From an uncultured Neglectibacter sp. (lineage in GTDB: Bacteria; Bacillota; Clostridia; Oscillospirales; Acutalibacteraceae), in contig CANSKS010000001.1 in the NCBI GenBank assembly GCA_947647615.1, forward strand, positions 90,441 to 128,589: 38,149 nt of DNA, given 5' to 3'. Each line of letters opens with the position of its first letter. Within the stretch, counting starts at the first letter, position 1. Of the stretch, positions 4,227 through 16,158 are shown in pieces. The notes under the pieces were generated by a model. That model saw only the letters and a list, made by a program, of their open reading frames with translations. It made no database searches and had not been told where the DNA came from. Position numbers and translations under genes: made by a program.

Positions 4227-5111
4227 TTATGGAATGTTTCTGGGCTGGAAATAATCGCCGGAAAGGTCTGCGGAAGGCGTATCCATCAACAAGCCGCGAA
4301 TATTTCCCAGCTGGGTGGCGGCGCTGGCGTCCACAATTTCGTCTGGCATTTCAATGATGCAGGTGCCCGATTCATCGTTCGCCATGGGAATAATGCGCAC
4401 CCGGTCGGAAAGCCCCCGAAGAGCCGCCGTCAAGGTGGCAGGCACTTGCCCCATGCGCTTGGCGTCGCATTCGGCAATGTAAATGTGAACCCACTCCCGG
4501 CGTTTCCGCTTGTCAATGGCGGTTTGCACCATACGGCTTATCACTTCCGTACTGCTCTTGAGGCTAATGCACACCACCTTTTCCGCAATAGCAATGGCCA
4601 AGTCCCGCAACTCGTCTACATTGTCGTCCAACTGGCGGTCCAAGGCAGCGGCAGCCTGGTCCAAATATTTTTGCACCTGCCCCGCAAGCTCAGTAGCCTG
4701 GCGTTCTCTGGCCTCCATACCTTCCTGCAAGGCCTTCTGCACCCCTGCCTCATAACCGGCCCGGTAGCCATCCTCCCGGGCAGTCCTGCGAATTTGCTCC
4801 GCTTCCTCTTCCGCCTCTTCTCTTGCCTGATCCAGAAGTTCCTTTGCCTGCTGGCGGGCATCCCGCAGCAAGGCCTCGGCTTGTACCTGAGCAAAACTCA
4901 CCGGATCCTGGGGCGCCGGTTCGGAAACGAGTTCCGGTTCTTCCAAGGTGTTTTCCTGCTCTTCTTCCTCTTCCCTTCCTGCTTCCAAGCCTTCTTCTTC
5001 GGAGGGCGGAGCCTGCTCCACGCTTTCTGTTTTTAGTTCAGAGGCGTCGGGGAACACATAAAGCTCCGCTTCCTTGGCCCGGGAAAAACGCTTCCAAATA
5101 TTACTAGGCAA
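4227..5111 (-). CDS. fliH: Flagellar export stator protein FliH
   Basis: FliH regulates FliI and docks it to the export gate and C ring. The product is 294 residues, longer than many FliH proteins because of an acidic low-complexity insert (~30-75). A helical region with repeated Glu/Ala/Arg (~75-160) includes GYRAGYEAG, the GxxxG-like stretch common in FliH. The C-terminal half resembles the V-ATPase E-subunit-like fold. The start is a TTG at 5111: AAAGGA lies 8 nt upstream and there is no other early start. It overlaps the end of fliG by 8 bases, which suggests translational coupling. Confidence 0.92.
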   Translation of the reverse strand: MPSNIWKRFSRAKEAELYVFPDASELKTESVEQAPPSEEEGLEAGREEEEEQENTLEEPELVSEPAPQDPVSFAQVQAEALLRDARQQAKELLDQAREEAEEEAEQIRRTAREDGYRAGYEAGVQKALQEGMEARERQATELAGQVQKYLDQAAAALDRQLDDNVDELRDLAIAIAEKVVCISLKSSTEVISRMVQTAIDKRKRREWVHIYIAECDAKRMGQVPATLTAALRGLSDRVRIIPMANDESGTCIIEMPDEIVDASAATQLGNIRGLLMDTPSADLSGDYFQPRNIP

Positions 5112-6186
5112 TGATATCGTCCTTTCCGCCCTTCAGGATAATAATCTCGTTCTTCTCTTCCAAAGCACGAATAATATCCACAATACGCTGCTGGGCGGCC
5201 TCTACATCCTTGGTGCGCACATTGGTCGTAATTTCCAAGTCGTCCCGAATATTCTGGGCCATACGAGTAGACATATTGGTAAAGAGCTTGTTGGCCACCT
5301 GGGCATCTGCCGCTTTGAGCGCCAGCACCAAATCGCGAGGGTCGCAGTCCTGCACAAAGCGCTGCACCGAACGATTGTCCATGGTGACAATATCTTCGAA
5401 GACGAACATACGCTTGCGGATCTCTTCGGCCAGCTCCTGGTCGTATTCGGAAATGCCGTCGAAAATATTTTTTTCGCTGGCCCGATCCAGGTTGTTCATC
5501 ACATCGGCAACATAATCGATGCCGCCCACCTTCACATCTTGGCTGGTGATAATGTTGGAGAACTTCCGGTTCATTTCCGCTTCCACAATTTTCACGGCCG
5601 AGGGAGAAACGCCGTCGATCCTGGCAATCCCTTCCACCACCTGTACCTGTTTCTTTTCATCTAACTGGGCGATCACCGCGGCCGCCTTGTCGGCGTCTAT
5701 GTAAGAAAGCACCAGCGCAATGGTCTGGGGCCGCTCTCCCTGCAGAGCCGAGAACAGCGATTTCACATCTGCCTTATTCATAAAGGCAAACTCTCTCTCT
5801 TTCAAGGAGCTTGTGACCTTGTTCAAAAGGTCCTCGGCCGCTTGGGCACCATAGGCCTTTTCCAGCACGCTTCTGGCATACTCCAGGCCGCCCTCTGTCA
5901 CCGCCTTGTTGGTCATACACATGCGGTAGAAATCCATTAGGGCTTCTTCCGTCTGCTCCGAGTTCAAAAAACCCAATCGCGCGACTTCCAAGGTAAGCTT
6001 TTCGACCTCTTCCGGCTCCATATACTGGTAGAGCTTCGAAGCTTTTTCGGCTCCCAGTGCGACAATAACAGCAGCGGCGCGCTGCTGGGTTGTCATGGTG
6101 TCTAGTGCCGATACCTTATGTTCTACCGGTTCGGCCGCCGCTGCTTCCGGAACGGCCGCCGCTGTAGCAGTAGCTGCATCAGCCAT
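5104..6186 (-). CDS. fliG: Flagellar motor switch protein FliG
   Basis: FliG sits on the MS ring and transmits torque from the stator; it also takes part in direction switching. The 360-residue product has an Ala-rich N-terminal extension (~1-28), then the FliF-binding domain. The middle domain carries ERPQTIA at 151-157 (the EHPQ motif with Arg for His). The hinge and Gly-Gly region follow near 221, MFVFEDI is at 260-266, and the charged torque helix starts around 280. The start ATG overlaps the fliF stop by 8 bases. Operon position and length agree with the family. Confidence 0.96.
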   Translation of the reverse strand: MADAATATAAAVPEAAAAEPVEHKVSALDTMTTQQRAAAVIVALGAEKASKLYQYMEPEEVEKLTLEVARLGFLNSEQTEEALMDFYRMCMTNKAVTEGGLEYARSVLEKAYGAQAAEDLLNKVTSSLKEREFAFMNKADVKSLFSALQGERPQTIALVLSYIDADKAAAVIAQLDEKKQVQVVEGIARIDGVSPSAVKIVEAEMNRKFSNIITSQDVKVGGIDYVADVMNNLDRASEKNIFDGISEYDQELAEEIRKRMFVFEDIVTMDNRSVQRFVQDCDPRDLVLALKAADAQVANKLFTNMSTRMAQNIRDDLEITTNVRTKDVEAAQQRIVDIIRALEEKNEIIILKGGKDDIIA

Positions 6187-7828
6187 TCTTCTCGCCTCCC
6201 TTCAGCAGGTTGCGAATCATCATTGCTGCGATTTCCGGGTTATCCTCGGCAAACTGCCGAATATCCCTGCGCAGCTCCATACTCTTTTCTGTTTGCAGGC
6301 TCATCACGTCGGCGCCGCCTTCTTCTTCTTCCTGAGGTACGAATTCCACCGGAATCACCACGCCGCCGCCGGGCGCACCTGCAGCCGCAGCGGCTTCCGC
6401 CAAAGCCAGCTCCCGCTTCTTCCGCTTCTTCTTGCTTATGATCACCATTAACGTGATCAAGATAATGAAGAAGAGCAAGCCTCCGGCTGCTGCGATTAAC
6501 ACCCACAGCGGGATGTCTTTCAAGTTGAACAAAGGCGGTATGACGCTGGGATTGTCGTTGATAACGGGATCTTGATAAAAACCGCCGGGCAGAATGGAAA
6601 TCTTGGAAGCGGCCAGATTGTCGTCGATCCCCGCCACCCGGGCCACGTGGGCCCGCAGGGCGTCTACATTGATCACGCCGGCGGTGGTGCTGTTCACCGT
6701 TACCGAAACCATGCAGTCGGTAATATACCCGGCCGTGTGCTCAATTTGCATGACCCGGCGGTCGTTGTCGTAATCTTCTTCTCCGGAAGTGTGAATAGAC
6801 CGTTCGTCTCCGTTCGCCTGTGCCTCTTCTTCCACATAGGTGTTCAAATCGGCGTTATCTTGGGCGCCTACTACGCCGCCCACCGTTTCGTCGTCTCCAC
6901 GGACAATGCTGTTGTCATAGACCTTTTTGTTCAAAAGGCCTCTTTCCTCTTCCTTGGCGGTTTCCGGCAGGTTGTAGGTGGTAGATTCCTCAATGGTGCG
7001 GTTCACATCCACCGTGCAGTTCACGCCTACCTTCACGTTGTCCTTGCCGTAAAGAGGTACCAGTACCTGCAAAATTTCGGTGCGGATCTTATTGTTGTTT
7101 TCCTCTTCCAGCTGCAGCCTCAAGGCCGAAAGGTCGGTAGCGTCGCTGCCGTCTGCGGCGTTATAGGTATTGCCCCAGTTATCGATAATGGAAACAGAGG
7201 AAATATCCAAGCCCTGAACCCCTCGGGAAACAAAGGTGCGAATGGCGGTAGCCTGTTGGGCGGAGAGGTTTTCCCCCTCCCGCATATTCACAAAGACAGA
7301 GGCCGTAGCGCCTGTCAGGTTTTTACTGTCTAAAATATAGGTGCGGTCTTCCCCTTCGTTGATCTGTACTACCGCTTCCGTCACGCCCTCGAAGCACCGG
7401 ATCACCGCGCCCATCCTGTCTTGGATCATCATGAGATAGGCCGCGTTCCGTTCCGATTCCGTAGAAAGGGAGCTTACGTTTTGGTAGTAGCCGTCATAGG
7501 AAAAGCCGGATTTCGGATACCCCTGCATCAAAAGCTGCATCTTTAACTGATCTTCCTGGTTCTTAGGCACCAGGATCGTGGAGCTGCCCTCCATGCGGTA
7601 ATCCGTCATGCCCTGCTCTTCCAAATAGCTGGTAATGGCCGCCGCCTCTGTACTGTTCAATTGGGTGAACAGTACAGAATAGGGCTGGTTATTCAAAACA
7701 ATGGTAATAACGGTAGCTGCGACTACCAAAACCGCCACACCCGCTATAATAGCTATGATGGCCTTCTTGGATAATTTTTTGAAAAAGCCCGTTACCTTTC
7801 CCAGGGCTTCTTTGGCCTTATCGCCCAT
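6179..7828 (-). CDS. fliF: Flagellar MS-ring protein FliF
   Basis: FliF forms the membrane ring on which the rod, switch and export apparatus assemble. The 549-residue product has two membrane segments, at ~23-45 and ~439-465, which enclose the large extracytoplasmic ring-building region. A Lys/Arg-rich stop-transfer patch (KKKRKKR) follows the second segment. The last ~30 residues (RQFAEDNPEIAAMMIRNLL) match the FliG-binding C-terminal peptide of the family. It is a normal-length member between fliE and fliG, and its stop overlaps the fliG start. Confidence 0.96.
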   Translation of the reverse strand: MGDKAKEALGKVTGFFKKLSKKAIIAIIAGVAVLVVAATVITIVLNNQPYSVLFTQLNSTEAAAITSYLEEQGMTDYRMEGSSTILVPKNQEDQLKMQLLMQGYPKSGFSYDGYYQNVSSLSTESERNAAYLMMIQDRMGAVIRCFEGVTEAVVQINEGEDRTYILDSKNLTGATASVFVNMREGENLSAQQATAIRTFVSRGVQGLDISSVSIIDNWGNTYNAADGSDATDLSALRLQLEEENNNKIRTEILQVLVPLYGKDNVKVGVNCTVDVNRTIEESTTYNLPETAKEEERGLLNKKVYDNSIVRGDDETVGGVVGAQDNADLNTYVEEEAQANGDERSIHTSGEEDYDNDRRVMQIEHTAGYITDCMVSVTVNSTTAGVINVDALRAHVARVAGIDDNLAASKISILPGGFYQDPVINDNPSVIPPLFNLKDIPLWVLIAAAGGLLFFIILITLMVIISKKKRKKRELALAEAAAAAGAPGGGVVIPVEFVPQEEEEGGADVMSLQTEKSMELRRDIRQFAEDNPEIAAMMIRNLLKGGEKNG

Positions 7829-7872
7829 GCGACGTCACCCCCTGACTCATACGAAATATCTTCCACATCCCG

Positions 7873-8202
7873 TTACAGGCTAATGCGGTTCAATTCCGCA
7901 TAGGCATCCAGAGCCTTGTTCCGCAGCTGAATTAACAGGTTTACAGCCACCTGGTTCTTGCTGGCGGAAATCATCAAAGCTGCCGGATTATCCAACTGGC
8001 CGGTAGCCAACAAGTAACGGTCTTTCGCCAATTCCGAATCGGTTTCTTTCACATTTTCTACCACCGAACGGAAAATGGCGCCAAAGGGGGGTTGCCTCTC
8101 TTCTGAAGAAACTTCCTGCTGCCCGCTCAAGAACTCCATGGGCTTCAGGCTTTCCAAAGGCTTTATGGTTTGGAAGTTCAAGGGCTCTATTGGTGTAATC
8201 AT
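7873..8202 (-). CDS. fliE: Flagellar MS-ring/rod junction protein FliE
   Basis: FliE connects the MS ring to the proximal rod. The C-terminal half (ETDSELAKDRYLLATG, then LMISASKNQVAVNLLIQLRN) is the typical FliE helix pair. The longest frame begins at 8238, but no ribosome binding site precedes it. An AAAAGGAG site at 8217-8224 points to the ATG at 8202, though the spacing is rather long (14 nt). This gives 109 residues, the usual family length. The gene sits between flgC and fliF. Confidence 0.9.
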   Translation of the reverse strand: MITPIEPLNFQTIKPLESLKPMEFLSGQQEVSSEERQPPFGAIFRSVVENVKETDSELAKDRYLLATGQLDNPAALMISASKNQVAVNLLIQLRNKALDAYAELNRISL

Positions 8203-8282
8203 AGGTAAATGCCAGGCTCCTTTTCCCATTAGTTGCATTAGTTTTTAAAGGGCTTTACTTTTTTACAAAGCGCAACACCCTG

Positions 8283-8747
8283 TTACCGGCCGATTTCCAA
8301 CCCCTTGGAAACCACTGATTTTAGAGCGTTCAAGGCGGTAACGTTGGCGGAATAGGCCTGGGTGGCCGCCATGGCGTCTGTCATCTCTTTTACCATATCC
8401 ACATTGGGCAACGAAAGGTAGCCGTCTTCATCGGCATCGGGATGGTTGGGGTCGTAGACAATTTTAAAATCGGTGGGATCTTCCACGATAGCCGCCACAC
8501 GAACGCCGCCAGCCTTGTTATACCGTTGGTTGGAAACCACGCCGTCGGCAGCCTTCGCCATAGCCTCCCGAAAGCCGTTCCTGCCGGACTCCGATTGGAA
8601 GATCACCATTTTCCGGCGGTAGGTACCGCCGTTGTTTTCGGTGCGGGTGGTGTTGGAGTTGGTGATATTTTCCGCCACAATATCCAACCGCAGCTGCTGG
8701 GCCGTAAGCCCGGAGCCGGAAATATTCATAGAACTTAAAAAAGCCAT
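8283..8747 (-). CDS. flgC: Flagellar proximal rod protein FlgC
   Basis: FlgC is a secreted rod subunit. The 154-residue product starts with the rod/hook signature (SGLTAQQLRLDIVAENITN; the family's NIAN is NITN here). It ends with the helical MVKEMTDAMAATQAYSANV block that packs in the rod core. AAGGAGGA lies 8 nt before the ATG. It follows flgB by 18 bases. There is no cleavable signal peptide, as expected for a type III substrate. Confidence 0.96.
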   Translation of the reverse strand: MAFLSSMNISGSGLTAQQLRLDIVAENITNSNTTRTENNGGTYRRKMVIFQSESGRNGFREAMAKAADGVVSNQRYNKAGGVRVAAIVEDPTDFKIVYDPNHPDADEDGYLSLPNVDMVKEMTDAMAATQAYSANVTALNALKSVVSKGLEIGR

Positions 8748-8765
8748 TTTCAGTTTCCTCCTTGC

Positions 8766-9152
8766 TTATTGCCCGCGCACCACGCTGAGCATGGTAGAAA
8801 GGCCGCTGGAAATTGAACTCATCACATATTGCAGCTGGTAGGCGTTGCGCACCAGCTCTGTGGTCTGCTCGGTAATATTCACACCGTTTTCATCCATCCT
8901 GGTGGATTCCTGGGGTTCTACCACAGCAAACTCTGTGTCTTCCAACACACGGCGGATAGATTTTTTCGGGGTTTGAGTACCCCGGGCGGCCTGGAGCTTA
9001 TCCTGCAGGGTCTCTTCAAAGGTCACCACTTTCGCCTTATAGTTCGGCGTTTCCACATTGGCGATATTATCTAAAATCGCGGCTTGTTTTGTCCACAGGA
9101 AGCCCATGGACTTTTCCATCATCAGAAGGGAATTGCTAGACAAAAAATCCAT
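8766..9152 (-). CDS. flgB: Flagellar rod protein FlgB, first gene of the operon
   Basis: FlgB is a proximal rod subunit exported by the flagellar type III system. A GTG at 9188 opens the frame, but the AAAGGAGGA ribosome binding site lies inside that extension and points to the ATG at 9152 (spacing ~12 nt), giving 128 residues. The rod signature QAAILDNIANVETPNYKA is at about residues 21-38, and the C-terminus has the usual helix (ELVRNAYQLQYVMS). A sigma-A-like promoter about 240 bases upstream and a structured leader lie between promoter and start. Confidence 0.95.
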   Translation of the reverse strand: MDFLSSNSLLMMEKSMGFLWTKQAAILDNIANVETPNYKAKVVTFEETLQDKLQAARGTQTPKKSIRRVLEDTEFAVVEPQESTRMDENGVNITEQTTELVRNAYQLQYVMSSISSGLSTMLSVVRGQ

Positions 9153-9175
9153 TTTAAAAAGAGTTCCTCCTTTTC

Positions 9176-9293
9176 CTTCGCGGCCCACAAAAAACTTCGG
9201 CCTTTTTCCCTTTCTGCTGTAAAAATGGGCATTTACCGGCAGAAAACCCTACATAGAGCTCTTCGGATAAAACGAGAAAAAGGTGCCGCGAAG
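9176..9293 (-). promoter_or_regulatory. Nested stem structure in the flgB leader (possible cis-regulatory RNA)
   Basis: Three sets of complementary segments nest inside one another on the minus-strand transcript. The outer pair is 9 bp, perfect (9285-9293 with 9176-9184). The middle pair is 8 bp, perfect (9276-9283 with 9201-9208). The inner hairpin has 7 bp (9239-9245 with 9211-9217) plus 5 bp (9232-9236 with 9219-9223). Two copies of CCGAAG lie in the single-stranded parts, at 9261-9266 and 9195-9200. The outer stem ends ~8 bases before the flgB ribosome binding site. I do not recognise a known riboswitch class; the conserved core of cyclic-di-GMP-I RNAs is absent. Confidence 0.5.
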
Positions 9294-9649: not shown

Positions 9650-11722
9650 TTAATCTTCTTTATTTTCCGCCGCAGACTCTTCTATTACTTTCTGGGCCAC
9701 ATTCTGCGGAGCCTCTTCGTAACGCTCAAAGTCAAAGGTGAAGCTTCCCCTTCCCTGAGTCACCTGGCGCACATAGGTGCAAAAATCGTGCATTTCCGCC
9801 ATGGGGACTTCGGCTTCTACCACTTGGCGGCCTTCGCCTATGGAATCCATACCCAACACCCGGCCCCGGCGCTTGTTTACTTCGCCCATAATGTCGCCCA
9901 TGTTGGCGTCCGGTACCATGGCCTTTAAGTGTCCAATGGGTTCCAGCAGTACAGGGCTTGCCTGGGGCATGCCAGCTTTATAGGCCAGGGTAGCAGCCAT
10001 TTTAAAAGACATTTCCGAAGAATCTACCGGGTGGTAAGACCCGTCATACAGCACGGCGGAAAGGCCCACTACCGGGTAGCCCGCCAAAGGCCCTCTCAAA
10101 ATACACTCCCGAAGCCCCTTTTCCACCGCAGGGAAGAAGCCCTTGGGCACGGAGCCGCCTACGACCCGCTCGCCAAATTCCAACCCGTCACTGTCACAAG
10201 GGGAGAACTCGATCCATACATCGCCAAACTGGCCATGGCCACCGGTCTGCTTCTTGTGCCGGCCTTGCACCTGTACGCTCTTCCGGATGGTTTCCCGGTA
10301 AGGGACCTTGGGCTTTTTCAGGGTGATTTCCACGCCAAACTTGGTTTTCAGCCTTGAAACCGCCACATCCAAATGCTGTTCTCCCAGACCGCTCAGCACC
10401 ATTTCATGGGTTTCCACGTTGTTGGTAAACTTCAAGGTGGGATCTTCCTCGGAAAGCCGCAGCATCCCCTGCGCCACCTTATCTTCCTCACCCTTATTCT
10501 TGGGAACAATGGCCATAGAAAGGGTGGGATTGGGGTATTCCACTCCTTCCAGCGTCACCTTCCTGGCAGGGGCGCACAAGGTGTCGCCGGTATTGGTGGT
10601 GGTCAGCTTTGGTACCGCACCAATGTCGCCGGCGCCAATATATTTGACGTCCTCCTGCTTCTTCCCGCAGATCATCACCGTCTTGCCAATGCGCTCCACG
10701 GTGCCCGTGCGCATGTTCAGAAGCTGGGAGTCGGCTGCGACCTTGCCGGAGATCACCTTCAGGTAGGAAAGCTTTCCAATGAAGGGATCGGCCACGGTTT
10801 TAAAGACGACGGCCGCCGCCGCACCTTCTGAATTCACATGAATCTCCACCGGGTTCCCGTCTACATCTGTGCCCAGCTCCTCCGCTTTCTCCTCTGCAGA
10901 AGGGGCCAGCCATGCCAGGCCGTCCATAAATTGCTCCATGCCCCGCATGAGCATAGCGTCGCCGCAGAATACCGGCGTGATGGTACCCATCTTCACACCC
11001 TTGCTCACGCCAATAATCACTTCCTCCGGCGTAAATTCCTCGCCGGCAAAATATTTTTCAAACAGCGCGTCGTCGGTTTCCGCTACAGCTTCGTAAATGG
11101 CTGTCCGCAGCCCTTCCAGCCGGTCTCCCATATCCGGCATAGGCACCGCCACAGGCTTTCCGCCGGAATAATCGTAAGCCTTATATTCCAACAGGTTAAT
11201 ATAAATATTGGCCTGGCCATCCTGGATAAAAGGCACTACCACAGGGCACACCGAAGGGCCAAACTGCGCCTTCAGGTCCTCAAACACCCGGTAGAACCTG
11301 GCGCTTTCGTCACACAGGCCATTTACAAAAAAAATCTTGGCCAAATCCCGCTTCTGGGCCGCCGCGAAAGCTTTCTCCGTACCTACGGCCACACCATTTT
11401 TGCCGGAGATCACAATAAGTACAGTATCTGCCGCCCGCATGGCTTCGCACATAGCGCCTTCAAAGTCAAAAAGGCCGGGAGCGTCCAGCAGGTTGATCTT
11501 TTTATTTTTCCACTCAAAAGGTGCCACTGCCGCCGAAATTGACGTTTTCCGGCGAACCTCCTCCGGGTCGTAATCGCTTACCGTGTTGCCGTCGTTCACC
11601 TTGCCGCGCCGGTCTGAGGCACCCGCCAGGTACAGCATTGCTTCGGTCAGTGAAGTTTTTCCGGAGCCCCCATGGCCTGCTACCGCCAAATTTAGAATGT
11701 TCTTTGCCTGATATTGATTCAT
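9650..11722 (-). CDS. EF-G-like GTPase (second-type elongation factor G paralogue)
   Basis: The 690-residue product has the full EF-G domain layout and full EF-G length. The P-loop is AGHGGSGKTS at 15-24 and the switch-I Thr is near 60. G3 is DAPGL at 80-84, where canonical EF-G has DTPGH, so the catalytic His is replaced by Leu. G4 is NGLCD at 134-138 instead of NKxD. C-terminal domains III-V are intact (QTGGHGQFGDVW, and the GRGSF region). These changes fit the EF-G-like group sometimes called EF-G2/FusA2, not housekeeping FusA, which normally sits with rpsL/rpsG/tuf. Its role is unknown to me; ribosome binding is likely. It is a single-gene unit with its own promoter and terminator. The start is well supported by AGGAGAGG 7 nt upstream. 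Confidence 0.88.
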   Translation of the reverse strand: MNQYQAKNILNLAVAGHGGSGKTSLTEAMLYLAGASDRRGKVNDGNTVSDYDPEEVRRKTSISAAVAPFEWKNKKINLLDAPGLFDFEGAMCEAMRAADTVLIVISGKNGVAVGTEKAFAAAQKRDLAKIFFVNGLCDESARFYRVFEDLKAQFGPSVCPVVVPFIQDGQANIYINLLEYKAYDYSGGKPVAVPMPDMGDRLEGLRTAIYEAVAETDDALFEKYFAGEEFTPEEVIIGVSKGVKMGTITPVFCGDAMLMRGMEQFMDGLAWLAPSAEEKAEELGTDVDGNPVEIHVNSEGAAAAVVFKTVADPFIGKLSYLKVISGKVAADSQLLNMRTGTVERIGKTVMICGKKQEDVKYIGAGDIGAVPKLTTTNTGDTLCAPARKVTLEGVEYPNPTLSMAIVPKNKGEEDKVAQGMLRLSEEDPTLKFTNNVETHEMVLSGLGEQHLDVAVSRLKTKFGVEITLKKPKVPYRETIRKSVQVQGRHKKQTGGHGQFGDVWIEFSPCDSDGLEFGERVVGGSVPKGFFPAVEKGLRECILRGPLAGYPVVGLSAVLYDGSYHPVDSSEMSFKMAATLAYKAGMPQASPVLLEPIGHLKAMVPDANMGDIMGEVNKRRGRVLGMDSIGEGRQVVEAEVPMAEMHDFCTYVRQVTQGRGSFTFDFERYEEAPQNVAQKVIEESAAENKED

Positions 11723-11974: not shown

Positions 11975-12013
11975 AAAAAATTCGGGCCGCTTCCCTTTTG
12001 GAAAACGGCCCGA
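11975..12013 (-). terminator. Intrinsic terminator after the pseudo-P-type ATPase gene
   Basis: On the minus strand, TCGGGCCG (12013-12006) pairs perfectly with CGGCCCGA (11989-11982). An inner TTTCC/GGGAA extension adds to the stem, and A followed by TTTTTT comes directly after. It is located 18 bases past the stop codon of the rlmB-ATPase-like unit. Confidence 0.9.
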
Positions 12014-12031: not shown

Positions 12032-15000
12032 TCACCGCTTCCGCAGCTTGGGAATTATCAAAATAATCAACAGCCAAAACAGCTGGAACGTAAACAGTAC
12101 AAAAGAGGTAAGCTGCTTCATGCCGCCAAAGCAGGCCAGGAAAGCCACTACCACAAAACCTAAAATGACCGCCGCGCTTTGCAGAGCCACAATCAGTCCC
12201 ACATTGCGGCGTTCGCCTACACAGGCGGAAACCACACTCAGAAGGGATTCCATACGGCCCTTTGTGGCCACTTTGGCGTCTGCCCGGGGGATCTCTTCCT
12301 CCATTAGCTGTTTGCCCACTTCTCCCAGTTGACTGCCCAGCACACAGACAGAAGCGGTGTCTATCCCGAACAGGCGGGAAAGCAACTGGGGAGTCACGTT
12401 CATGTCGGTGGTTCGCACCACGATACTTACACCGTTGTCTTCCAAACGCTGCAGCTCATTTTTCTTCCGACGGTCCGCCGAATAGGTCAGGATCATCATG
12501 GCACAGACCCGGGTATCCACCGCCAAATACACTACCTGTTTGTTGCCGGAAACATACTGGTTTTCTTCTTCCCTGGCGGGCGCCTCCAGGCGATGGTTCA
12601 TCAAGAGAGAGCGGTTGCCAATATAGACCCGTTTTCCATCCACATAGCCAACAATCCCGTTTCCGTCTTCGTAAGAAACCCCTTCCACCTCGGGCAGGGA
12701 GTCTTCGTTTTCACTGATCACCTGCTCGAACACGCCGCTTAAGGGGCCGCCCACTTCCTTCATCAACGCGGAAGCCGCCATAATGGCCTCCTCCGCCCCT
12801 TGCCTGTTCCCGAAGGTCTTAATGCCGTTGAGCACTACCGTACCCAAGGGAAAGATCTCTCCCGCATCAACCAAAACGGCGTTTACGTTACCCAGCTCCT
12901 CCACGCCCTCGTAGCCCACAATCATGGCACCGGCCCGGCGGGCCGTTTTGCACAAACGACTGACCGGCAGGTTAATCGCCAGCATATTTCCCACTGCCAC
13001 ACAGGCGCAAGCCGCAGCCGCCAAGGCACTTAAGGCCACCGGCACGCTCCGGGTAATCAGAAGGCTGGCAATGCAAAGCACCAGCGAAGCGATAAGCCCG
13101 ATGGGAGCAAGGAACTGGGAAGCGGCTTCGGCAGGGTCAGGATTATAGGAAAACTCTAAAAACCGCTTCAAAAAGCCTGTTTTGCACTGGTAAGAAAGTA
13201 CCGGCTTTTCCGCCACACAGTCCTTTGTCATTTTCAGTGCGGTATTATAGTCGTCGAAAAGACGTACGCTGTATTTTTGCTCTTTGGAAGACACAAATCG
13301 GAAGTTGCTATGAATCCGGCGCAGCATGGTCTGCTTCCCCGCGGCGTTTACAAACAGAATTGCCGAAACCACTACCGCGTACAAATGCAGCTTTCCCTCT
13401 GCCAGGTCGGAGGCAAAAAACAGGGCGCAAACAGTCTGGGCCAGCGCCGCCACCGCCGCCACCGCCGCCGCGCTGTCGGAATTGGCGTTAAAGGCAAACA
13501 GGGCTTTCAAGCCGTTCCCAATGGTGCGGTAGCAAATTCCCACAGAAACCAGGAAAAATACAAGTGTGAGCACCAGGTACACCATGGGGGCCGAGCCCCA
13601 TTCCCCCACCGGGGTTGCGGCAAAGGAGCCGCCGAAGATCATATTGACAATGGCAAGCAGAACCGTGCACACTCCGGTAATGAGCATTCGCAGGGTAAGC
13701 TCCTGCATATCGCCCTTCAATTCCCGGGAAATCGACTTGGCGTCTTCCGGTCCGGTGTAATCGTCTATGGCCTCGCCGGTATCTTCCTCCGGCATGTCCG
13801 ACATCTGGGCTTGGGCCAGGTCCTCTTCTTTCCTCCTGGCAGCATTCCGTTTCCGGGAAGACCTGCGGCCTTCTTCCAGCTCCGCCTTTCTTTGCAGCTC
13901 TTCCGATTCCGTAAGCAAAGCGCTTTGTAGAATATCGGCATTGACCACATGGGTGGGAATTCCCCTGGGTCGGTATTCATAAATGCTGGCCACCCGGGGG
14001 ATCTCTTTTACCGGGCGGCCAGAGATCACCTGAGTTTCCATCTCCGGCTTTTCCCCAGGCCCGAGCACTTCCGCCGCCCGGACAGGCTCCGGCTGTTCCA
14101 CAGGTGCTTCCTCTTCCCGGGAAATTACCCGAAGAACCGGCCCATCTTGCACGGATTTCGGGGGCGTCTCGGCGGGTATCTCTTCCATGGAGGTAGGCTC
14201 CTCCATGGAAGCCTCCTCTTCCACTGGAGTCCGCTCGTTTGCAGGGTCCACCTCTTCCACTGGAATCTTCTCTTCTGGGGGGAACGCCTCCGCCCCAGGC
14301 GCCTGCTCCTGGGAAGCCTCCAAAATTTTGTGAACCGCACCCTCGCTGACAGCAGGCATGTCCTGGGTCCGCTGGAGCTCCACCGTATCGTTCAGCACAT
14401 TGAGCTTGATCTCCATGGTCTTTTCCGAAGAAGTTTCCAGCATCGCCTTCTGAATCTCCGGCAGCCCTTCCCCGGAAGCCTTGGCCCCTTCTACTGCAAT
14501 CCCATGCTGCTTGGCATAAGGGTCGGCCGCGAAGGCCGTAACCGGCATGGGCGCCACAATTCCAAACTCGTCGGCGATCTGGTTTTCATCCATACCCGCG
14601 GTTTGTACCGCCTCGGCTACCCGGCGGCGGCGCTCCTTTTGCAGCCTTTGGAAATTGGCCTCCACTTCATCGTCAATGGCCTTTTTCGAATCGTCAAACA
14701 GCGACTTAAAGCTGTCTTCCTTTAAGGTAAATTCCCCTGTGGCTCCATCAAAGCCCATGCGGTATTCATCAATAGGCTTAAGCTGGATACCGTAATACAT
14801 ATCCTCGCCCTCGTCAAAATCGGGGGCCCGTTTTTTCCGGCCAAACCAGCCGCCTTTTTTCTTCTTTTTCTTTTTTTTGCCTTTGTCCTGTTCCTTTTCG
14901 GTCTCTTCCACGGGGAACTCCTCCGGGAATCTTTGCTCCCGGCCGCCCAAATCCTCGGAACCTTCCCAAGACTGCTCATCCTTTGGCAATGTGAGATTCC

Positions 15001-15202
15001 CTGTGGCAAAAGCGTTGAGATCCTCCGCCTCCTCTACTTCCTGCTGGGCAGGTTCAAGGGAAGGCATAGCGTCGGGTTCCGAAACCGGAGACGCCTCCTC
15101 CACAGAAGAAAGCTCTTCCTCCGCCTGTGGTTGCTTCCGGCGGCGGCGCTCTTCTTCTAAAATATCTTCCAACGAAAATTCGTTATTTCTTCCTTCTCCC
15201 AT
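12032..15202 (-). CDS. Large membrane protein with a degenerate P1B-type ATPase core (pseudoenzyme candidate)
   Basis: The product has 1056 residues. Residues 1-~500 are charged, low complexity and probably cytoplasmic, including a poly-Lys run near 110 and many PVEE/MEE units. About eight membrane segments follow: four from ~502, two at ~695-743, and two at ~1002-1024 and ~1029-1051. This order, and the soluble part between TM6 and TM7, copies P1B-type ATPases. The motifs are altered: CPC is C732-A-C734; the phosphorylation motif DKTGT aligns with D779-AGEIF; TGDN aligns with TTDM (931-934); no GDGxND is visible. The nucleotide-domain segment GNGIVGYVDGKRVYIGN is retained. Ion pumping is therefore unlikely. 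It starts 14 bases after rlmB with a good AAAGGAG site and is probably cotranscribed. The true function is unknown. Confidence 0.75.
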   Translation of the reverse strand: MGEGRNNEFSLEDILEEERRRRKQPQAEEELSSVEEASPVSEPDAMPSLEPAQQEVEEAEDLNAFATGNLTLPKDEQSWEGSEDLGGREQRFPEEFPVEETEKEQDKGKKKKKKKKGGWFGRKKRAPDFDEGEDMYYGIQLKPIDEYRMGFDGATGEFTLKEDSFKSLFDDSKKAIDDEVEANFQRLQKERRRRVAEAVQTAGMDENQIADEFGIVAPMPVTAFAADPYAKQHGIAVEGAKASGEGLPEIQKAMLETSSEKTMEIKLNVLNDTVELQRTQDMPAVSEGAVHKILEASQEQAPGAEAFPPEEKIPVEEVDPANERTPVEEEASMEEPTSMEEIPAETPPKSVQDGPVLRVISREEEAPVEQPEPVRAAEVLGPGEKPEMETQVISGRPVKEIPRVASIYEYRPRGIPTHVVNADILQSALLTESEELQRKAELEEGRRSSRKRNAARRKEEDLAQAQMSDMPEEDTGEAIDDYTGPEDAKSISRELKGDMQELTLRMLITGVCTVLLAIVNMIFGGSFAATPVGEWGSAPMVYLVLTLVFFLVSVGICYRTIGNGLKALFAFNANSDSAAAVAAVAALAQTVCALFFASDLAEGKLHLYAVVVSAILFVNAAGKQTMLRRIHSNFRFVSSKEQKYSVRLFDDYNTALKMTKDCVAEKPVLSYQCKTGFLKRFLEFSYNPDPAEAASQFLAPIGLIASLVLCIASLLITRSVPVALSALAAAACACVAVGNMLAINLPVSRLCKTARRAGAMIVGYEGVEELGNVNAVLVDAGEIFPLGTVVLNGIKTFGNRQGAEEAIMAASALMKEVGGPLSGVFEQVISENEDSLPEVEGVSYEDGNGIVGYVDGKRVYIGNRSLLMNHRLEAPAREEENQYVSGNKQVVYLAVDTRVCAMMILTYSADRRKKNELQRLEDNGVSIVVRTTDMNVTPQLLSRLFGIDTASVCVLGSQLGEVGKQLMEEEIPRADAKVATKGRMESLLSVVSACVGERRNVGLIVALQSAAVILGFVVVAFLACFGGMKQLTSFVLFTFQLFWLLIILIIPKLRKR

Positions 15203-15216
15203 AAGGGTTCTCTCCT

Positions 15217-16071
15217 TTACGGATTCACTGCTCGCAAGCCACTCCTTTGCCGGGCCACCTCATAACATAAGATTCCCGCCGCTACAGAAGCGTTGAGCGA
15301 ATTGATCTTCCCGTGCATGGGAAGGGATATCACAAAATCGCAGTTTTCTTTTACAAGTCTTCCAATTCCTGTGCCCTCGGAACCAATCACCAAAGCGGCC
15401 GGGCCGGAAAAATCGGTCTCACACCAGGGGCTGCCCTCCATGTCTGCGGCGTAAATCCACACACCCCGCTCCTTCAATTCTTGCAAAAAGCCGGTCAGGT
15501 TTTGTACTCTGGTCACCGGGATATGCTCTACCGCCCCGGCCGAGGCCTTTCCCACCGCATAAGTAAGCCCTACGCTACGGCGCTTTGGAATTACCACCCC
15601 GTGAGCACCGGCACATTCCGCGGTGCGGATAACCGCGCCCAAGTTATGAGGGTCCTCCAGCCCATCACACACCACCAGGAACAGGGGCTCCCCCCGAGCC
15701 TCCGCCAGGGCAAAAATCTCGTCGGGAGAAGCGTACTCTTTTACTGCCGCCACTGCGGCTACCCCCTGATGCACCGCCCCGGCACAAAGGTGATCCAGCT
15801 TTCTGGAATCCACTTCCTTTATCACAGCCCCCGCTTCCTTGGCTTTGGCGATTAAAGTGAGCAGGGCTCCGCTCTTTTCACCCCGCTGCACAAAAAGGCG
15901 ATCGATGACCCTTTGGGCCCGCAGCGCCTCTGCCACTGCATTCCTGCCTATAATGACGTCTCTTTCCGCAGGGTGTCCTTCCCAATTGTTGGAAAGCCCT
16001 TTTTCTTTTTTGGTCTTGTCCAAATTCAGGCACGCATCCTTTTCCGCAAATTGACGCTGGACGGCAAACAT
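15217..16071 (-). CDS. rlmB: TrmH/SPOUT-family 23S rRNA 2'-O-ribose methyltransferase (RlmB-type)
   Basis: RlmB methylates a G in the 23S rRNA peptidyl-transferase region. The product (up to 284 residues) has an N-terminal substrate-binding domain starting at DVIIGRNAVAEAL (~38-50). The SPOUT domain follows, with all three motifs: DPHNLGAVIRTAECAG, LVIGSEGTGIGR and NSLNASVAAGILCYEVAR. The ATG at 16071 gives a ~37-residue extension ahead of the family's normal start, and its ribosome binding site is weak. A later non-ATG start cannot be excluded. A strong promoter lies ~55 bases upstream. TrmH paralogues are hard to separate by eye, so the exact target is inferred. Confidence 0.87.
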   Translation of the reverse strand: MFAVQRQFAEKDACLNLDKTKKEKGLSNNWEGHPAERDVIIGRNAVAEALRAQRVIDRLFVQRGEKSGALLTLIAKAKEAGAVIKEVDSRKLDHLCAGAVHQGVAAVAAVKEYASPDEIFALAEARGEPLFLVVCDGLEDPHNLGAVIRTAECAGAHGVVIPKRRSVGLTYAVGKASAGAVEHIPVTRVQNLTGFLQELKERGVWIYAADMEGSPWCETDFSGPAALVIGSEGTGIGRLVKENCDFVISLPMHGKINSLNASVAAGILCYEVARQRSGLRAVNP

Positions 16072-16129: not shown

Positions 16130-16158
16130 AGTATACCACAGTCCCTTTTAAATCTCAA
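16130..16158 (-). promoter_or_regulatory. Sigma-A-like promoter of the rlmB unit
   Basis: On the minus strand, TTGAGA (16158-16153), a 17-base spacer and TATACT (16135-16130) lie ~60 bases before the annotated rlmB start. The predicted transcript start near 16123 supports translation from 16071 or further downstream. Confidence 0.7.

Follow-up and report, generated by a model that had tools for sequence, protein, structure and literature searches.

Can the fold of a P-type ATPase outlive its pumping activity, and what would it then be used for? This question was raised by a gene in a 38,149-nucleotide stretch of DNA (the window) from contig CANSKS010000001.1 of an uncultured Neglectibacter sp. 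(GCA_947647615.1). The gene encodes the protein that we call the pseudo-pump. An earlier note on this DNA had read it as a P-type ATPase that kept its fold and lost pumping, and the predicted fold, the motif losses and the order-wide retention described below support that reading. It is the catalytic cycle that defines P-type ATPases; here the fold was kept throughout an order of bacteria while the motifs of the cycle were lost, and a catalytically dead P1B fold is well supported. Its most likely role, to which we give a probability of about 0.42, would be that of a membrane anchor whose cytoplasmic arm docks a partner protein.

Core fold, pump motifs and retention across the order

Hydropathy and predicted helices revealed eight membrane segments, arranged as four, a soluble insert at about residues 639-690, two, the head made up of the P and N domains, and a final two. 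This agrees with the six segments, soluble part and two final segments described in the earlier note. The insert after the fourth segment is a reduced actuator. The P domain (a HAD Rossmann fold) and the N domain are inserted in the membrane domain in the P-type order. The note had proposed a structure comparison as a check for a P-type ATPase fold, and this fold was found: the predicted structure matched LpCopA (3rfu), with 492 residues aligned at 18% identity, and its sixth helix was broken at residues 734-738. Judged by its predicted structure, the pseudo-pump is related to the P1B (copper-type) pumps and retains their membrane domain of eight helices, together with a folded P/N head.

The motifs were read from a joint alignment of 56 members (the window protein, 19 of the same family and 36 from other families) with 30 real pumps drawn from the genome searches of this study; the broken or odd members L219, L049 and L208 were left out. 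CAC (732-734), DAGEI (779-783), TTDM (931-934) and GNGIVGYVDGKRVYIGN (847-863) all lay where the note had placed them, and the alignment confirmed DAGEI at the DKTGT position and TTDM at the TGDN position. The D, K, T, G and T columns were occupied in 30/30 pumps, and DKTG was found in 0/56 members. The Asp of DAGEI, at the phosphorylation site, was invariant in set A3, which comprises 59 sequences from the window's family, but across the order 27/56 members carried Asp in this column. TGDN occurred in 0/56 members with its Asp (D933) retained in 55/56. GDGxND, reported absent, was indeed found in 0/56, and its stretch falls in an alignment gap.

One assignment of the note had to be moved. CAC does not correspond to CPC: it lies three residues off, MAFFT and hhalign both placing CPC over V735-A736-V737. 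No CPC-type metal site was found in the sixth membrane helix; CPC occurred in 0/56 members, and Pro stands at the CPC position, at the helix break, in 47/56 relatives and is replaced by Ala in the window protein. TGE was present in the actuator segment of 2/56 members (not in the window protein) versus 30/30 pumps, and the median length of this segment was 72 residues versus 137 in pumps. The columns that are Glu and His in 30/30 pumps hold M814 and G819 in the window protein; in the family, the four most frequent states of these columns include neither Glu nor His, and the His column (that of SEHP) is G or S in 41/56 members. The first Gly of the N-domain GxG was found in 17/56 members and the second in 55/56, thus an intact SEHP/GxG site was not found. 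The nucleotide-domain-like region around GNGIVGYVDGKRVYIGN was kept, as the note had said, with G849 in 55/56 and G862 in 56/56 members. N935 (51/56) and Y907 (53/56) are features of the family that pumps do not have.

The window protein scored 54.1 bits against TIGR01525 (cut-off 346.25), and the CopA model PRK10671.1 matched 19/21 core sequences at E 0.001, with 49.9 bits versus 1316 for the window member. No Pfam family was above cut-off for the window protein; the best match, EMC3_TMCO1 (E 0.075, 13.2 vs 27.1 bits), was taken as chance. Pfam matches were absent for the 21 core sequences at 0.001 and for seven long-armed relatives at 0.01.

The pseudo-pump belongs to the P-type fold superfamily but does not qualify as an active pump, and transport is unlikely because the known pumping motifs are absent. 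A transporter or channel of unusual chemistry, or a passive one, would fit the eight retained helices and the sixth-helix break with its frequent Pro, but the loss of DKTG, GDGxND and CPC in every aligned member and of the actuator TGE in nearly all makes it highly improbable. The head could instead serve a ligand-sensing regulator, in which the N domain would bind a nucleotide or another ligand and move the membrane domain or the arm; the retained G849, G862 and D933 are consistent with this. In CopA the Glu and His that stand at M814 and G819 contact ATP. Because both are replaced here, a nucleotide sensor is weakened, and the scarcity of the first Gly of GxG also speaks against it; we consider a ligand sensor very unlikely.

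The window genome belongs to an order that we take to be Oscillospirales in GTDB. NCBI taxonomy places Neglectibacter in Oscillospiraceae, and named relatives include Neglectibacter, Acutalibacter, Anaeromassilibacillus, Caproiciproducens and Faecalispora. A single-sequence search gave matches at E 1e-10 in 137/150 same-family genomes, the weakest of which could be real pumps. With a family profile 247/247 order genomes matched at 1e-5. A stricter line of 1.0e-33 was used because real pumps also match this profile; it was reached in 232/247 order genomes, and in principle such a pump of the order might score as high. Among 231 genomes of the class outside the order, no match was better than 1.7e-32, a value reached by a protein with DKTGT, GDGxND and TGDN; a sample of the phylum gave 7.0e-27 at best. 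Members without DKTGT were found in 24/24 sampled families of the order (at least one fetched locus each), and DKTGT in 44/45 matches fetched from outside the order. The exception, L173 (187-2607), has CPC, TGES, SEHP and TGDN, carries GDGIYD for GDGxND and does not match the DKTGT pattern; it was classed as a pump by hand and may be another degenerate P-type ATPase that arose independently. Pump and pseudo-pump can coexist close by: in genome G358 a DKTGT pump of 1105 residues (L221:2653-5970, plus strand) lies three open reading frames (ORFs) downstream, on the strand opposite to the pseudo-pump. The member L049:1238-4780 has an extra long, charged, Glu-rich C-terminal extension beyond the last membrane helix.

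The ratio of nonsynonymous to synonymous substitution rates (dN/dS), another check named in the note, was estimated by NG86 among ten f1 sequences, many of whose dS values were saturated. Where defined, it was 0.03-0.26 for the core and 0.09-0.37 for the arm; the three core pairs whose dS stayed below 0.75 gave 0.03, 0.13 and 0.25. On these estimates, far below 1, selection on the pseudo-pump is purifying, in keeping with the note's view that the gene is not decaying. Broken copies do occur: the sole fetched f22 copy (L219) is split by an in-frame TGA, the sole fetched f11 copy (L208) is split in two frames, and the f1 arms of L065, L085, L098 and L252 are broken, all possibly by assembly errors; furthermore 15/247 order genomes have no match above pump level. 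Against these stand the low dN/dS and the members in every sampled family, mostly in a single long open frame, and it is scarcely credible that the gene is a pump being lost from the genome by decay. In L219 (4164-6560, genome G170) the TGA is compatible with assembly error, decay or recoding, and the arm has a long AEAKAA repeat.

The cytoplasmic arm and its tip peptide

Ahead of the core lies the disordered arm, which the earlier note had put at about 500 residues; residues 1-480 have a predicted local distance difference test score (pLDDT) mostly below 50. The longer predicted helices are at 11-27, 173-202 and 422-448, accompanied by a few short elements. The tip follows the consensus [FY]S[LVI][DE][DE]ILxE, with I14 and L15 at least 90% conserved in set A3. 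A relaxed form of this motif was found in 55/78 distinct f1 arms and 15/35 arms of other families, where shuffles expect 0.4 and 0.3. Four of the counted family arms (L252, L261, L266 and L282) are truncated, either by a broken frame or by the end of the contig. The arms are also rich in basic runs: a 12-residue stretch with at least eight K/R was present in 38/78 f1 arms and 9/35 others (0.7 and 0.4 expected from shuffles).

A strict DNA pattern for the peptide gave 63 matches in the 247 order genomes versus 8 for the reversed pattern; 42 were on the pseudo-pump arm and 21 elsewhere. Two of these 21 were on disordered-looking tails, one of the lipoprotein signal peptidase LspA and one of an ABC-2 permease. 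The other 19 were read as chance, without family searches. Allowing one mismatch in 16 genomes gave more matches than the reversed control. Not every match was inspected; the eight ORFs that were read out had the peptide mid-chain and were taken as chance (presumably one SecA-like, two CorC-like, one ClpC-like look-alike and four others). With two of the peptides as phmmer queries, the PDB returned a single match for each (E about 7) and no known peptide structure resembling the arm tip.

The exporter permease (PF01061; L251:229-1539, minus strand, genome G245) has a disordered-looking N-terminal arm that begins MSDKFSIDDILAE, the same peptide as on the pseudo-pump arm. The LspA carrier (PF01252; L275:670-1542) bears the peptide on its C-terminal tail. 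In family f13 the LspA tails are long, often Pro/Ala-rich, and end in [FY][SDNT][LIV][DE][DES]I[LI]xEF-like peptides (L297-L326). Among the 30 loci most similar to the first carrier, taken from 115 f13 genomes with LspA, 20/29 readable genes encode a long tail with the peptide at its end; in a spread sample of 30 genomes across the order, one of them also f13, it was found in 0/27 readable genes.

Most likely the pseudo-pump would serve as a constitutive anchor in the membrane. The long flexible arm would extend away from the membrane core, and the amphipathic tip helix FSLEDILEE would dock in a groove on a partner protein, either cytoplasmic or peripheral, which would be held at the membrane. 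Because LspA in one lineage and the ABC-2 permease in one genome carry a like peptide on a flexible tail, this partner may be an envelope-associated hub into which several membrane proteins plug. Peptide binding, one partner common to all carriers and anchoring as the job of the protein are what we infer here.

Several observations weigh against this. The relaxed motif was missing in 43/113 arms (23/78 f1, 20/35 other), and some members are nearly armless (L206 with no arm, L234 with 9 and L047 with 32 residues). In the window's own genome the strict pattern matched once, on the pseudo-pump itself, and revealed no other carrier; with one mismatch allowed there were two further matches, of which one had an in-frame stop within the matched letters and the other lay at residue 61 of an 83-residue ORF. 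The LspA set was picked by similarity to a carrier. The peptide is short, and the LspA tails could be convergent and meant for another partner. In the most extended form of the docking reading one receptor, or the pseudo-pump head, would read [FY]S[LVI][DE][DE]ILxE and gather pseudo-pump, LspA and exporter in a hidden envelope-assembly hub, which we regard as rather unlikely; equally tentative is that the retired copper pump would be the near-universal anchor of such an envelope-assembly site.

The receptor could also be the P/N head alone. The arm peptide would then fold back on its own or a neighbour's head, leading to autoinhibition or oligomerisation, and LspA tails would use the same site, making the pseudo-pump the hub and not a client. 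Y907 and N935, conserved and lacking in pumps, suggest together with D933 that the folded head kept an interaction surface, and the LspA tail carriers belong to an order in which the pseudo-pump is near-universal. Armless members, however, retain the head, and we consider both the fold-back and the shared site quite unlikely.

The rlmB pairing and the gene in the window

Besides envelope docking, the gene neighbourhood points to another candidate role. Flanks were available for 127 loci; without two outgroup pumps and five loci at contig edges 120 remained, seven of which were second copies of the same contig, leaving 113 distinct ones. rlmB was directly upstream on the same strand in 112/113 (119/120 with second copies), and the single exception, L065, starts within the arm. 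The gaps were mostly below 50 bp with several overlaps; four were 421-1312 bp (L059, L085, L098 and L219), with broken or misread arms among them. The other neighbours are shuffled among relatives. Downstream, an EF-G-like gene of the same strand follows within two genes in 15/56 loci from several families, and also in the window. The link to RlmB is likely one of shared expression.

A translation-linked tether, in which ribosomes or assembly factors would be recruited to the membrane and the polybasic patch of the arm would touch rRNA or ribosomes, would account for the constant rlmB, for the EF-G-like gene where it occurs and for the K/R-rich stretches of the arms. Operon partnership may signify shared expression alone, however; in 41/56 loci no EF-G-like gene lies within two genes, in the window this gene has a promoter-like site of its own, and the same peptide on LspA and the ABC-2 permease indicates the envelope, not ribosomes. 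We therefore hold the tether to be unlikely and retain the docking anchor as the preferred reading.

The window gene is the only copy in its genome. Its frame is intact, with zero internal stops, as the note had claimed; the strand, which the note did not give, is minus by frame reading. The rlmB call is firm (TIGR00186 E 4e-72, score 242.6 vs cut-off 160.15). The note's expression signals were located. AGGAG at 15216-15212, immediately 3' of the rlmB stop, is the good ribosome binding site, and the terminator is a 14-bp stem at 12013-11982 with a T-run, the longest stem among 11 terminator-like sites (7.9 expected). The best-placed promoter-like site, at 16158-16130 (weak evidence, as 7 such sites were found vs 3.7 expected), lies ahead of rlmB. 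Because this site precedes rlmB, the pseudo-pump looks like the second gene of the rlmB transcript.

Table 1. Features of the pseudo-pump gene and its surroundings; coordinates are window positions.
Feature	Residues	Position	Strand	Basis and remarks
Pseudo-P1B-ATPase gene (P0001)	1-1056	12032..15202	minus	1056 aa; frame reading and predicted fold
Eight-helix P1B-like core	481-1056	12035..13762	minus	hhalign, structure prediction, structure comparison
Cytoplasmic arm, mostly disordered	1-480	13763..15202	minus	pLDDT mostly < 50, composition
Putative docking peptide FSLEDILEE	9-17	15152..15178	minus	pattern searches, predicted helix 11-27
Arm island: polybasic run then DMYYGIQLKPIDEYR	110-154	14741..14875	minus	A3 conservation; enrichment vs shuffles
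Reduced actuator-domain insert, no TGE	639-690	13133..13288	minus	segment length, predicted structure
V735-A736-V737, CPC equivalent	735-737	12992..13000	minus	MAFFT and hhalign
DAGEI, DKTGT equivalent	779-783	12854..12868	minus	joint alignment and hhalign
G818-G819-P820, equivalent of E-H-P in SEHPL	818-820	12743..12751	minus	joint alignment
Retained N-domain motif GNGIVGYVDGKRVYIGN	847-863	12614..12664	minus	joint alignment
TTDMNVT (family TxDPNIT), TGDN equivalent		12392..12412	minus	joint alignment
rlmB (23S rRNA G2251 2'-O-methyltransferase)		15217..16071	minus	TIGR00186; directly upstream, 14-bp gap
Shine-Dalgarno-like AGGAGAG		15210..15216	minus	sequence; adjoins rlmB stop codon (15219-15217)
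Intrinsic-terminator-like hairpin		11982..12013	minus	downstream of pseudo-pump gene
Promoter-like TTGAGA-17-TATACT		16130..16158	minus	upstream of rlmB; weak evidence

The EF-G-like gene of the window (9650-11722, minus strand) is above cut-off for NCBIfam PRK12740.1-5. Flagellar genes for FlgB, FlgC, FliE, FliG and FliH (4227-9188, minus strand) lie downstream of the pseudo-pump unit.

Comparison with known systems

The open-access literature, outside which fall most subscription papers and all preprints, held nothing on this bacterial family under pseudo-, inactive or degenerate P-type ATPases. The same was true of FUPA classes, among the matches listed, and of rlmB with a P-type ATPase, LspA extensions and CheY-binding peptides. 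As far as this literature shows, the family is undescribed. It offers a natural experiment on the uses of a P1B fold without pumping. Near-universal in the sampled genomes of the order, with scanned members lacking a Pfam match, it marks a large annotation blind spot. The peptide shared between arm and LspA tails raises a concrete question: which protein binds it?

The nearest known systems are the P1B copper ATPases (CopA including LpCopA, ATP7B, HMA4), which have in common with the pseudo-pump the eight-helix membrane domain, the P and N fold, the second Gly of GxG, the Gly of GN and the Asp of TGDN. Unlike these pumps, pseudo-pumps have no DKTGT, GDGxND or CPC in any of the 56 aligned members, have the His of SEHP replaced and almost never carry TGE; their actuator segment is halved and a long disordered arm precedes the core.

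Apicomplexan guanylate cyclases contain a P4-ATPase-like domain (PMC6592433, PMC7858053), and the title of one of the two papers names an activity of this domain. They resemble the pseudo-pump in joining a P-type-like membrane module to a further function. They differ in being eukaryotic, of another P-type class and fused to cyclase domains.

The CheY-binding peptides of FliM and CheZ have the shape S-x-[DE]-x-[IV]-x-x-L. This shape resembles the arm and LspA-tail peptides, which is a lead only. An N-terminal peptide of FliM and a C-terminal one of CheZ bind CheY (PMC9659070). The likeness lies in a short helix that ends a terminal segment, whether N- or C-terminal, whereas the carriers described here are envelope membrane proteins and not parts of the motor.
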